Part shown: one piece after another, positions 4,425 through 21,257 of the stretch
How the letters are laid out: every line of letters begins with the position of its first letter
Numbering within the stretch: the stretch's first letter is position 1
Virus record (IMG/VR): IMGVR_UViG_3300037584_004027
Coordinates: 1-35,720 of that record
Strand: one strand, 5' to 3'
Length of the DNA stretch: 35,720 nucleotides
From: a virus
Notes under the pieces: generated by a model
The model's input: only the letters and a program-made list of their open reading frames with translations
Databases searched by the model: none
What the model was told of the DNA's origin: nothing
Translations under genes and position numbers: made by a program

Positions 4425-4975
4425 CGTACAAATTTCTTGAGTCCAGCAACCTGCTTCTCTGTAAGCTGTTCACCATACTTTTTTGTAACCGCAGTGAACG
4501 CTTTCTTCTTGTCGGTCTGTGACTTGATGTATGACACAGCCTTGTCCATGATGTTCTCTACTGGCGCATCAAGCGCCTTGCTAAGCTTTTGAACGTGAGG
4601 GTTCTCAGCGATAGCTTGCTGCTTGGCAATAGCTTCTTCGACTTCGTTAGCCGACGCAATTGATGTTTCGATTCCGATTCCAAGGATTGCAAGGGCTCGG
4701 CCAACAGCAGAGGTTTCACAGTTTTCGACATAGGAGGTTTTGTTGATGTTCGACGATGACCGCTCTTCGTGGGCGTGGCCCACGGATACGATCCGACCCG
4801 ATGTATCACACACCGTTGCCTTGCATAAACACTGCTCTGAATCGAGGACTGGAAAGTCTGTTGCGATAGTCCAGTTCTTGTACTGCTCTTCCTGTCTGAA
4901 GAACTTGATGCGCTCGTTGACTTCAACGTAGCTCTTGCCACGAATGTTCGTGGTCTTGAATTTATAGGTGCTCAT
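4421..4975 (-). CDS. ERF/Rad52-like single-strand annealing protein
   Basis: Residues 83-101 read VENCETSAVGRALAILGIG, the conserved core of phage single-strand annealing and ERF-like recombination proteins, and the N-terminus has the mixed beta region expected of that fold (IRGKSYVEVNERIKFF, NWTIATDF). The C-terminal 60 residues are lysine-rich and helical. It should bind ssDNA and pair complementary strands, working with the RecE-like nuclease downstream. The start overlaps the upstream gene's stop as ATGA. I cannot tell ERF from related Rad52-superfamily groups by eye. Confidence 0.65.
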   Translation of the reverse strand: MSTYKFKTTNIRGKSYVEVNERIKFFRQEEQYKNWTIATDFPVLDSEQCLCKATVCDTSGRIVSVGHAHEERSSSNINKTSYVENCETSAVGRALAILGIGIETSIASANEVEEAIAKQQAIAENPHVQKLSKALDAPVENIMDKAVSYIKSQTDKKKAFTAVTKKYGEQLTEKQVAGLKKFVR

Positions 4976-8736: not shown

Positions 8737-9310
8737 AGCTGTCAGAGTTTTTAGGTTTGGGGATGCGGAAAGCGTGCATCACATAGTCGTCGATGTCGAT
8801 GAATGCGTGGTTGCCCATGTACACAGAGGATATGAAGTCAGTCAGTTGTTCGAGGGCCTCAACGGATTGGTCGTTGTCCATCACGTCAGAGGACACACGA
8901 GCCACCAAGGACATGCACAAGGGGGTGTAGTCCCATGCAGGGGAGGTATCGAGTTGGTCCCACGTCAGCCAACATGACTCGGTAGAGTCACTGCGGTTGG
9001 ACATGTCAAGCTCGATGATTCGAAACACCTCGACACTAACGTCGTCGCCGTTATCTGCTACCCAATCGTCGTGCTCCATGTCATGTGGTACACGAGCATG
9101 GTAGTCCATGTACTCACGGGTCATGGTGACGATGACGTTCATGGGGTCTGAGTCGTCAATCTCTACGCACATCTTGTCCTTGCGGTAGCCGCTGATGATG
9201 TCAAGGATGTGCTTGTCTGCAAGAGCTCGCTTGGGGAAGAACTCACAGGTGGTGTCGGAGTACCCTTCGAAGAGTCCTGCGACAGCGTGGATTACTGCGT
9301 ACTGCTTCAT
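8729..9310 (-). CDS. Acidic hypothetical protein (193 aa)
   Basis: The largest unknown in this cluster. It is rich in Asp, with mixed alpha/beta character (MKQYAVIHAVAGLFEGYSD at the start, VIVTMTREYMDYHARV near residue 60) and no catalytic or membrane motif I can identify. The start shares one base with the upstream stop (TAATG), indicating coupling. Nothing in the sequence indicates its function; low pI and location suggest an early protein. Confidence 0.6.
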   Translation of the reverse strand: MKQYAVIHAVAGLFEGYSDTTCEFFPKRALADKHILDIISGYRKDKMCVEIDDSDPMNVIVTMTREYMDYHARVPHDMEHDDWVADNGDDVSVEVFRIIELDMSNRSDSTESCWLTWDQLDTSPAWDYTPLCMSLVARVSSDVMDNDQSVEALEQLTDFISSVYMGNHAFIDIDDYVMHAFRIPKPKNSDSYE

Positions 9311-9534
9311 TACTTGTAGGTTTTTTCGATGATGAGGTCAGATGCCTCGTCGATGTTGGAGATGAGTGTGGCAAGAGGGGTCTTGCATGAGTGCTTGCCT
9401 TCCAAGGCGGCACATGACATACTCATCAGTTGTGCCACATCTCGGTGGCGACTGAAGTTGATGATGAGGGTGACCTTGCTCAGGTCCTCCTGAATTGCTT
9501 CGGCAAGTTGCCGTGTGTTCATGTCTTGTAGCAT
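9310..9534 (-). CDS. Small hypothetical protein (74 aa), first gene after the RNA cluster
   Basis: Begins MLQDMNTRQLAEAIQEDLSK, a helical protein with three cysteines and no known motif. It is the first gene downstream of the 450-bp tRNA-like cluster and carries the common leader motif (9546-9556 on this strand, 11 nt before the ATG). An internal ATG at 9522 is an alternative start. It opens the coupled run that continues to the 8-kb genes. Confidence 0.55.
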   Translation of the reverse strand: MLQDMNTRQLAEAIQEDLSKVTLIINFSRHRDVAQLMSMSCAALEGKHSCKTPLATLISNIDEASDLIIEKTYK

Positions 9535-9605
9535 GGTTGATTGAATTGAAGTTTGAAAGTGTTGAGGTCGCCCCTCATAATCTTAGACTTGATTGTCCTG
9601 CGTGT

Positions 9606-9736
9606 GGTGTGGGTGGAATCGAACCACCGACAACCCTCATGTTCATTGCCATTGGGAAACCCTTGGTAAAGGGTGGAAGGAACATCTATTGGGTTGTCAC
9701 ATCCTTACCGCATCCTCATGCGGGATATGTCACACC
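9606..9736 (-). ncRNA. tRNA-like four-way-junction RNA with canonical T-arm
   Basis: On the leftward strand the segment folds into four abutting stems: a closing stem of 6 bp (9731-9736 with 9606-9611), a hairpin at 9700-9730, a long arm at 9629-9698 (8 bp, then 6 bp, then 6 bp), and a 5-bp arm GGTGG/CCACC at 9612-9628 whose loop is TTCGATT, the standard tRNA T-loop. The order closing stem, D-like, long arm, T arm copies a tRNA, but the anticodon arm is replaced by a 70-nt arm and there is no CCA. It may be a decayed or repurposed tRNA. Confidence 0.45.
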
Positions 9737-9767
9737 TGTGGTATCTACATCCTACTGCTAACCACTT

Positions 9768-9855
9768 TGGAAGGGAGGTTGGGATTCGAACACAACTGCC
9801 GTCCGACCTGAGTGGCCATGATTTTAGTGGACGTACGCACCGACTGCGCTCCCTT
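9768..9855 (-). ncRNA. tRNA-like RNA with acceptor-type stem, D-loop and T-loop
   Basis: A 7-bp closing stem pairs 9849-9855 with 9771-9777; next to it lies a D-like arm with loop AGTCGGT, and on the other side a T-like arm with loop TTCGAAT (one mismatch in the stem). If the closing stem is read one base shifted, the 3' end finishes in an encoded CCA (9770-9768). The 88-nt length suits a class II tRNA (Leu, Ser, Tyr), but the anticodon stem is poor and the likeliest reading of the loop (CUAAAAU, anticodon AAA) is unusual, so amino acid identity is left open. Confidence 0.5.
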
Positions 9856-9867
9856 GAAAATCAAAGG

Positions 9868-9932
9868 GGAAGAGGTAGTATCCTATCTACACGCCTACAT
9901 CTGACGTCAGCCCTGTAATATGCTGCTCTTCC
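9868..9932 (-). ncRNA. Linker-less cloverleaf-like RNA (65 nt)
   Basis: Reading leftward from 9932, four stems of 7, 4, 5 and 4 bp follow each other with no unpaired linkers: closing stem GGAAGAG/CTCTTCC, arm CAGC/GCTG with a 10-nt loop, arm ACGTC/GGCGT (one G-U) with a 7-nt loop, and arm GTAG/CTAC with an 8-nt loop. The geometry imitates a reduced tRNA, but U33 and the T-loop consensus are missing, so it is unlikely to be a working tRNA. Confidence 0.4.
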
Positions 9933-9943
9933 TTGAAAAAGGT

Positions 9944-10008
9944 GGGGGGAAGGTGTGACGTTTCACACGCTCATCCAATCGAATTGCATCCCGAAAGGCG
10001 TCCCCCCG
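9944..10008 (-). ncRNA. Fourth structured element of the tRNA-like cluster
   Basis: A G/C-rich closing helix pairs about 10002-10008 with 9944-9950, enclosing a perfect 6-bp hairpin GTGTGA/TCACAC with a 4-nt loop (9951-9968 region) and a short CAAT/ATTG hairpin. Less tRNA-like than its neighbours. It sits directly downstream of the stop codon of the 10020-10232 gene and could equally be a 3'-end stabiliser of that message. Confidence 0.35.
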
Positions 10009-10019
10009 ATGGTCAAACT

Positions 10020-10232
10020 TCAATCAACCAAAAACCTTTCATGCCGTGACACAATTTCGATCGCACGTGACATAGCATATGTGCGTTGTTGTGTCATTGT
10101 ACCCGCTACTTGAGGTGTTGGCAGGTCGAACTTGTAAGTTCCTGCCTCGCTCATGTAACCCATAGTGTCGTTGCCCCGCTGAATAGCATCAGCAAGCTGA
10201 CCTGTCAATTTGATTTTTTCGCTGTGTGTCAT
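10020..10232 (-). CDS. Small hypothetical protein (70 aa)
   Basis: Helical protein starting MTHSEKIKLTGQLADAIQRG; no recognisable domain. Last gene of a coupled run: its ATG overlaps the preceding stop as ATGA. The stop codon lies within the reverse-oriented copy of the leader motif at 10013-10023, just before the tRNA-like cluster. Confidence 0.6.
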   Translation of the reverse strand: MTHSEKIKLTGQLADAIQRGNDTMGYMSEAGTYKFDLPTPQVAGTMTQQRTYAMSRAIEIVSRHERFLVD

Positions 10233-10666
10233 ACTGTTTCTGTTTCGAGAAGTTCATCTTCAATGATGCCCTCCATGATGTGGTCAGTGATTTGATGGAT
10301 GACAACATCCCTGTCGCTCCAATTGCCATACCCCTGAGCATCCAACAAGAACCCTCTGAGTTCTTTGTGCATGTTGTATGGTATATGACTGACAAGGTAG
10401 TCAACAAGGTCTTCATAGAACGAATCCATCTTGTACTCCATCACCTCATCTCCGTGTTCGTCGATGTCTTCCCACCCCTGCCATAGGTTGCAGAACCCGT
10501 TGTTGTAGTAGTCGTAGCCAATTCGAGAGATGGCGCGGAGTGCTTCGGGCCATCCGTCATCTGCCTCACCTGATGCAGGGATAAGTCGCTTCCATGCTTC
10601 GTTGTACTCTGTTTGGTACTTGCCGTCGTTGTCCCAATAGGAACCGACTTCGAGTGTGTTGCTCAT
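10229..10666 (-). CDS. Acidic, aromatic-rich hypothetical protein (145 aa)
   Basis: Rich in Asp, Glu, Trp and Tyr (for example YYNNGFCNLWQGWEDIDEHG), which suggests a compact soluble protein, but no family is recognised. Its ATG overlaps the preceding stop (ATGA), and the leader motif UCAAACUUCAA occupies 10677-10687, inside the 3' end of the upstream coding sequence, 10 nt before this ATG. Conservation of the motif even inside a coding region supports a role in initiating this gene. Confidence 0.65.
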   Translation of the reverse strand: MSNTLEVGSYWDNDGKYQTEYNEAWKRLIPASGEADDGWPEALRAISRIGYDYYNNGFCNLWQGWEDIDEHGDEVMEYKMDSFYEDLVDYLVSHIPYNMHKELRGFLLDAQGYGNWSDRDVVIHQITDHIMEGIIEDELLETETV

Positions 10667-10803
10667 TTTTTTTTGTTTGAAGTTTGACGTGGTTTCTTTG
10701 ACAGGTCAAAGGTGACCCGCTTGATTGCCCAGGCGGTGTGCTTGTTTATTGCTTTGCTCTGCATATCAGCGAGCTGTTTTACGAGGTTGAATTGTTCGCT
10801 CAT
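10663..10803 (-). CDS. Small basic protein (46 aa)
   Basis: Start at ATG 10803-10801 (MSEQFNLVKQLADMQSKAIN), because this ATG overlaps the upstream stop as ATGA. The protein is helical and ends in a lysine-rich tail encoded by the leader motif of the next gene followed by a run of A residues. The last residues (QTSNKKK) are therefore constrained by the regulatory motif. No family recognised. Confidence 0.6.
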   Translation of the reverse strand: MSEQFNLVKQLADMQSKAINKHTAWAIKRVTFDLSKKPRQTSNKKK

Positions 10804-12976: not shown

Positions 12977-13028
12977 GATACAGACACCCCGAAGGGTGTT
13001 TCGTCCACTCAGGACTCGTCAGTGTACC
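12977..13028 (-). ncRNA. Type I hammerhead ribozyme, copy 1
   Basis: Every core element of a hammerhead is present on the leftward strand: stem I 13028-13023 with 12982-12977 (6 bp), CUGACGA at 13022-13016, stem II GTCC/GGAC with loop TGAGT, GAA at 13002-13000, stem III ACACCC/GGGTGT with loop TTCG beginning with the required A15.1-U16.1 pair, and C17 at 12983. The open helix is stem I, so it is type I. Cleavage would fall between 12983 and 12982, leaving a 25-nt leader with the common motif before the ATG at 12957. The UGA stop of the upstream gene is part of the CUGA core. Confidence 0.9.
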
Positions 13029-13583: not shown

Positions 13584-13639
13584 GACACAGACACCCCCCG
13601 AAGGGGGTGTTTCGGCTATTGAAGCCTCGTCAGTGTGCC
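13584..13639 (-). ncRNA. Type I hammerhead ribozyme, copy 2
   Basis: Complete hammerhead on the leftward strand: stem I GGCACA/TGTGTC (13639-13634 with 13589-13584), CUGACGA at 13633-13627, stem II GGCT/AGCC with loop TCAAT, GAA at 13613-13611, stem III of 8 bp (13610-13603 with 13598-13591) with loop TTCG, and C17 at 13590. Compared with copy 1, stems I, II and III differ by compensatory changes while the core is identical. Cleavage would release a 27-nt leader with two leader motifs before the ATG at 13562. Confidence 0.9.
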
Positions 13640-13651
13640 TGTCATATGATA

Positions 13652-21180: not shown

Positions 21181-21257
21181 CCGCGAGTATCCCCTCAAGC
21201 TTATACCTTGTAGAAAGGGTAGTTGGTTACACGCGGGTTCAAGCCCCGCCTCGCGGA
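21181..21257 (+). tRNA. Aberrant tRNA-like sequence, anticodon uncertain (possibly Tyr GUA)
   Basis: A perfect 7-bp acceptor stem (21181-21187 with 21250-21256) and a perfect 5-bp T arm GCGGG/CCCGC with loop TTCAAGC are in exactly the right places, and the total length is right for a tRNA. The middle is odd: the best anticodon arm, ACCTT/AGGGT, has a 6-nt loop GTAGAA without U33, no proper D arm is visible before it, and a D-loop-like AGTTGGTTA appears after it. It may be a decayed tRNA or an unusual one. No CCA is encoded. Confidence 0.45.

Follow-up and report, generated by a model that had tools for sequence, protein, structure and literature searches.

The C4 antisense RNA of phages P1 and P7 acts on a single antirepressor transcript, and the bacterial Y RNA YrlA is a tRNA-like module joined to another stem. 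C4 is also recorded as an RNase P substrate (Hartmann et al. 1995, as cited in PMC11143913). In mammals, mascRNA and menRNA, tRNA-like modules from the 3′ side of the MALAT1 and MEN-beta/NEAT1 RNAs, are substrates for both RNase P and RNase Z, and have no junction linkers, a reduced D-arm, an elbow between GG and the T-loop, and no anticodon loop (PMC11693755). We describe RNAs with features of both kinds in a 35.7-kb phage record in IMG/VR, IMGVR_UViG_3300037584_004027 (the window, 35,720 nt in all), whose terminase is 39-47% identical to those of Flavobacterium elemo phages and of a Manatee Spring podovirus. The carriers of these anticodon-free tRNA-like RNAs are viruses of marine Bacteroidota-type bacteria. 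In this bacterial phylum, translation depends little on the usual ribosome-binding sequence.

A preliminary description of the window had reported a row of four tRNA-like folds between two protein genes. All four (A to D; Table 1) are present, on the minus strand and co-directional with both flanking ORFs, but they differ in type, since C and D are tRNA-like and A is not; minimum-energy structures were cloverleaf-like and multi-branched for B, C and D. The stems listed there, the T-loops TTCGATT (D) and TTCGAAT (C), the D-loop AGTCGGT and the CCA of C were all recovered, and the remark that no anticodon loop is convincing holds for C and D, in which the arm is absent or variable and without tRNA pattern. 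ARAGORN, one of the checks proposed, called none of A to D as a tRNA, and the Rfam tRNA model was likewise negative. What the preliminary description did not contain is the minus-strand orientation, the place of A in an antisense RNA and the occurrence of the elements in many phages. Relative to shuffled sequences, folding-energy z-scores were -2.2 for A, -1.7 for B, -0.6 for C (not significant), -3.4 for D and -1.5 for the whole four-element stretch; folding energy by itself is weak evidence for these RNAs, and comparison is the decisive test. For this we used 39 related loci, gathered by scans with two neighbouring proteins.

Table 1. Positions in the window of the island elements, leader copies and other RNA features.
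Feature	Position (nt)	Strand	Remarks
Upstream ORF, 70 aa	10020-10232	-	Stop codon inside H0
H0 hairpin	10010-10030	-	Single copy per genome; overlaps stop codon of gene 10020-10232
Element A	9944-10007	-	About 28 distinct island contexts contain its motif and outer stem
Element B	9868-9932	-	Identical in window and L009 only
Element C (TLS-1)	9771-9855	-	CM score 88.7 bits
Element D (TLS-4)	9604-9738	-	16 compensatorily changed pairs among 13 variants
Leader TCAAACTTCAA of gene 9310-9534, downstream of island	9546-9556	-	Predicted H0 target, by complementarity
Downstream ORF, 74 aa	9310-9534	-	Its leader comes after the island
Leader TCAAACTTCAA of gene 10229-10666	10677-10687	-	
Further TCAAACTTCAA copies	about 11217, 11948, 12968, 13389, 13575, 14301, 15146	-	
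Two hammerhead ribozymes	12978-13027 and about 13585-13640	-	Complete core
TLS-6	21181-21256	+	Odd tRNA-Ile(UAU)-like gene adjoining tRNA-Arg
tRNA-Arg	21282		Next to TLS-6

Element C of the window, TLS-1, combines an acceptor stem (AAGGGAG/CTCCCTT), a D-arm (CGC-AGTCGGT-GCG) and a T-arm with a variable arm where the anticodon arm would be, and CCA follows it here and in L017. Its relatives were located by the 5′ core in 33 IMG/VR contigs, which yielded 27 distinct forms, almost all of them sharing the 5′ half AAGGGAG-CGC-AGTCGGT-GCG and carrying a TTCRANY T-arm; a CM search found a strong copy, one per genome, in 18 of 20 records and a diverged copy in one further record, with E values of 1e-17 to 1e-22 in most relatives. 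Covariation was seen in pairs of the anticodon-position stem and of the T stem. Because the acceptor is invariant in nearly all copies, its pairing is backed by a single diverged form, which has a different but still complementary acceptor (AAAGACG/CGTCTTT, in L032 and L249). The arm at the anticodon position ranges from absent (0 nt in L066 and L068) to about 80 nt (L035/L048); the substitute arms pair well, and some end in a UACG or GATC loop, as in L011/L018, where a 4-bp stem carries a UACG loop. In L004, L016 and L022 the D-loop is expanded, yet GG is kept beside the 3′ D-stem strand; the L016 copy (4680-4781) has no anticodon arm and contains two copies of GTAGCAAATGACCAA in its expanded D-loop.

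As candidates for functional tRNAs, the 27 distinct variants of C have the 7-bp acceptor and the TTCRANY T-arm, the 13 variants of D have such a T-arm with 6-8 acceptor pairs, and neither C nor D has a 7-nt anticodon loop with U33, the arm being missing or its loops variable, 4-nt or longer. Compared with mascRNA, TLS-1 keeps the elbow sequence (D-loop GG and T-loop TTCRA), has a reduced D-arm, lacks an anticodon and has few or no junction linkers, and from these elements a D-loop/T-loop contact is predicted. It has 13 stacked acceptor and T positions instead of the usual 12, typically with a U.C mismatch, and this could shift or weaken cleavage by RNase P.

Element D, TLS-4, is closed in the window by (CA)GGTGTG..CACACC(AC). 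Its acceptor has up to 8 bp (6 pairs in the window, 6-8 among the 13 variants) and its T-stem 5 bp, the loop of the D-like hairpin is always GAGG, and a long arm at the anticodon-arm position ends in a conserved tip, TTCCTTCCACCCTTTACCAAGGG..ATGGCAATGA. It also occurs in other phages that lack the H0 antisense hairpin described below. With a tRNA-like end and a long helix replacing the anticodon arm, TLS-4 is like tmRNA, and its T-arm gave one weak 17-nt Rfam match to a cyanobacterial tmRNA; however, an ARAGORN tmRNA search was negative, and the 130-nt element has a closed, base-paired arm and no mRNA-like tag region. Altogether, the comparison of variants indicates that both TLS-1 and TLS-4 are conserved structured tRNA-like RNAs.

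The two remaining elements differ from these. A in the window (GGGGGGA..TTCCCCCC) is a G/C-rich hairpin with an invariant apical TGAAACGTCA; across relatives it has an outer G/C stem and a constant TGAARCGTCA tip, and in many phages it is a single long hairpin. It is conserved but not tRNA-like, and belongs with H0 to the antisense RNA unit. Two other assignments of A were dropped: a hammerhead (GAAAC..GUC), given that CUGANGA is absent and stem III has no room, and a terminator, given that the U-run is not constant. B (GGAAGAG..CTCTTCC, 65 nt) has a cloverleaf-like minimum-energy fold and no T-loop consensus, and no copies other than those of the window and L009 were found in the comparison loci. 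A cloverleaf is plausible for B from this modelling, in the two phages that have it.

Other tRNA-like families occur in these phages. L004 (1225-1280) and L019 (2963-3018) carry a 56-nt, anticodon-free perfect cloverleaf (AGGTGTT..AACATCT) with no linkers and a 4-nt loop at the 'anticodon' position, of which L016 has a longer-arm version; a TLS-3 family with covarying acceptors was found in L011, L020 and L053, and a TLS-5 family in L023, L029 and L204. A conserved hairpin plus GAGGGGCRTAGCCCGCA lies immediately 5′ of TLS-2 and TLS-5 in L004, L019, L016, L023 and L029, and is itself preceded by a hammerhead in L029 and L023. An apparently structured, conserved stretch of about 240 nt, TTAGTCGGCGGACGTTAAACGCAT...CACCTGCACTC, fills the same intergenic slot in L005 (about 4575-4820) and L031 and has no Rfam match. 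The real tRNAs of these phages are intact and at another locus than the island. Beside the tRNA-Arg of the window, TLS-6 has a proper CUUAUAC anticodon loop, but its D-arm is missing from its place and a D-like hairpin (GTAAYTGGTTAC) follows the anticodon arm, around which there is CYC:GRG pairing. All TLS-6 helices are 90-100% paired, with 14 pairs changed on both sides; the pattern is present in at least 120 viral contigs, and a relative (73.6%, loop CTGATAA) is present in Streptomyces phage LilMartin. Against the Rfam tRNA model TLS-6 scores 28.2 bits, just under the cut-off, in an alignment that skips the D-arm and includes an 18-nt insert.

The phages sharing invariant TLS core sequences also share a lineage marker, the protein of a 193-aa gene, at 50-85% identity; in known phage isolates neither TLS-1 nor a relative of this gene was found. 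The TLS-1 core pattern gave four matches in 84,980 bacterial and archaeal genomes, all in other organism groups, and in the one inspected the 3′ half of TLS-1 was absent downstream. TLS RNAs look lineage-specific, since only two clear copies turned up in a sample of 120 loci from other contigs, which was selected by the TLS-6 pattern and contained 339 tRNAs in 1.1 Mb. At gathering level, Rfam reported for the window and 15 relatives ordinary tRNAs and two TLS-5 members, and nothing else; permissive searches of the islands gave weak, chance-level matches, the closest for TLS-3 being to tRNA-Sec (21.8 bits, E 0.07).

The hairpin just 5′ of A, H0 (UGGUUGA-UUGAAGU-UUGACCA), links the island to other genes of the phage. 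Its loop/stem sequence UUGAAGUUUGA is the exact complement of a leader motif, UCAAACUUCAA, that stands shortly upstream of the start codon in about eight window genes, and its loop starts with a YUNR motif (UUGA). A duplex-energy comparison of H0 with all ORF upstream regions failed to tell cognate genomes from non-cognate ones, since well-scoring duplexes were numerous everywhere, and exact-motif matching was used in its place. By this test the antisense agreed with the leader of its own genome in all 21 antisense-bearing genomes, with no mismatched case: 18 genomes have the T form, with the antisense plus 3-8 gene leaders each, G009 and G017 have an A form of both antisense and leader (CAAACATCAA / TTGATGTTTG), and G021 a third form of both (TCACTCAA / TTGAGTGA). 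The six antisense-free genomes have 0-1 gene-leader copies of these motifs. The leader switches are two kinds of change among related phages, perhaps two evolutionary events. Unbiased 9-mer counting upstream of ORFs recovered the same leader in many genomes, and in L029 both sides of the H0 stem are changed (UGGUU/GACCA to AGGUU/GGCCU). As in a C4-type regulator, complementarity to the leader of the phage's own mRNAs and compensatory co-change are thus both present.

Two other features were noted. The whole genomes G001-G016 have a second ORF-upstream motif, TATATTTGC, similar to the -7 element of Bacteroidota promoters. The two hammerheads of the window have their predicted cut site just upstream of the leader TCAAACTTCAA and score below Rfam cut-offs (Hammerhead_1, 21.2 bits; RAGATH-1, 28.2 bits); most relatives have one to four hammerheads per genome.

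In 30 of the 34 distinct TLS-1 variants, H0 is found 2-198 nt 5′ of TLS-1; the four copies lacking the antisense upstream are those of L032, L035, L053 and L054. The gap is a bare 2 nt in L068, holds A in most cases and A plus B in the window and L009, while in L020 and L024 another structured RNA stands between H0 and TLS-1; where B is absent, the tip of A is 19-22 nt from TLS-1 in most relatives. Since the content of the gap varies, what stays constant in the unit is the antisense together with the tRNA-like boundary. A further structured RNA, GTCAGGTGTGGTGGGG...AATGACTGACGGCTCGGAAAGACGAGC, with no Rfam match, was seen in L034, L035, L020, L024, L053 and L068, and can take the place of hairpin A before TLS-1.

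TLS-1 is probably the cutting mark that finishes an antisense regulator, as the commonest TLS stands directly behind a leader-matching antisense. Our preferred but still tentative reading of the sequences is that the phage makes an antisense regulator of its own genes, and that host RNase P defines the 3′ end of this RNA by cutting at a mascRNA-like mimic. The island would form a non-coding RNA unit, lying within an early phage gene's 3′ UTR, in which the 5′ portion, H0 and in most cases A, is an antisense RNA to the leader common to many of the phage's own genes. TLS-1 appears to retain cues for RNase P and RNase Z, namely the stack of acceptor and T stems and the elbow from the D-loop GG and the TTCRA T-loop, and to lack what these enzymes can do without; host tRNA-processing enzymes would most likely cut it, and also TLS-4 behind it. 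Cutting would yield an antisense RNA with a defined 3′ end, near which hairpin A would lie, separated from the next gene. The freed stable antisense RNA, or an uncut form capped at its 3′ end by TLS-1, would then pair with the leaders, most likely repressing translation of early genes. Comparison supports the proposed RNA structures, the antisense/leader matching and the linkage of H0 to TLS-1, and we infer that the unit is transcribed, that RNase P/Z cleaves it and which way the regulation goes. Points against this reading are the four TLS-1 copies without an antisense upstream, the occurrence of TLS-4 without it, an acceptor pairing backed by one diverged form, the small number of leader switches, the 13 stacked positions, and B separating A from TLS-1 in the window and L009. 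Of the options raised by the preliminary description, a processing signal for RNase P/RNase Z appears to fit best, for C, given its mascRNA/menRNA traits and its nearly fixed distance behind the antisense unit. More broadly, and a little less securely, this dsDNA phage lineage may have a modular family of anticodon-free TLSs with an open insertion site at the anticodon, one of which, cut by RNase P, would mark the 3′ limit of a global antisense RNA co-evolving with a multi-gene leader.

The main rival, which takes up the decoy option of the preliminary description and which we consider unlikely, is that the processed TLS RNAs are themselves the product, acting in trans as mimics that occupy a host enzyme or defence protein recognising the tRNA elbow or acceptor (RNase P/Z, the CCA enzyme, EF-Tu or a tRNA-cutting toxin), with the antisense linkage incidental. 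It draws its standing from the single copy of TLS-1 and from the TLS-4 tip, which is strongly conserved, as a binding site would be, and is found also without H0. One TLS-1 per genome at a varying position (e.g. L029, L053, L054) is gene-like rather than what a repeated processing signal would give, and the same phages carry several unrelated TLS families. This reading nonetheless leaves the strong H0 linkage unexplained and lacks a candidate target, and mimicry of anticodon-nuclease targets by TLS-1 is ruled out by the free variation of its anticodon arm.

Slightly less probable is a purely local role in which the TLSs are operon punctuation and H0 pairs just with the leader of the next gene, looping the island out. 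The inverted repeat around the island does consist of H0 and the downstream leader, the best H0 duplex in the window is with gene 9310-9534, and the hammerheads of this region point to cutting of early transcripts by these phages; but the same leader precedes about eight window genes and all its copies switch together with the antisense, and the TLS-1 copies of L054 and L053 are at other junctions, with no H0. That the folds are transcription terminators or chance hairpins is very unlikely: in the window U-rich sequence comes after the G/C-rich hairpin A, and the energy of C alone is unremarkable, but the linker after A is frequently not U-rich (ACCTCAATCA, ACCCCTTCCA), and a scan for acceptor plus T-arm pairs yielded 49 distinct phage candidates, which include canonical tRNAs and some chance matches, compared with five matches in 1.5 Mb of simulated sequence. 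Decayed tRNA genes, another option of the preliminary description, would account for canonical T-arms and acceptor stems minus an anticodon in phages that, like many, have tRNAs, but are contradicted by compensatory stem changes, invariant cores across many phages, well-paired replacement arms and the intact true tRNAs elsewhere, and are thus highly improbable.

In the literature searched, whose coverage was incomplete, we found no description of anticodon-free tRNA-like RNAs like these in DNA phages. If the preferred reading of an antisense regulator finished at TLS-1 is true, the phage RNAs are a natural counterpart to the mammalian tRNA-mimic processing signals, the tRNA elbow alone is enough as a genetic cutting mark, and one antisense RNA fitted to a multi-gene leader is available as a self-contained example. 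The natural series of TLS-1 forms, with an anticodon arm of 0 to about 80 nt and a normal or expanded D-loop, probes what RNase P and RNase Z require. As for YrlA, the phage RNAs gave no Rfam match and a TROVE/Ro protein was not found in 14 phage records.

Compared with canonical phage tRNA genes, C and D are alike in acceptor, D and T arms and differ in having no anticodon loop. TLS-1 resembles mascRNA and menRNA in its acceptor and T arms, D-loop GG, lack of linkers and position as a boundary 3′ of another non-coding RNA, a likeness that is an analogy and not sequence homology: the mammalian RNAs have one fixed sequence each, whereas the phage TLSs fall into several families whose anticodon arm is hypervariable or missing and whose cleavage we infer. 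The H0 unit resembles C4 as a putative phage antisense regulator, C4 itself being a recorded RNase P substrate, but in other phages and with other targets, directed at a multi-gene leader and with a separate tRNA-like module 3′ of the antisense. By this comparison, the phage RNAs appear to work like mascRNA as a processing mark and like C4 as an antisense, and to be a member of neither by descent.
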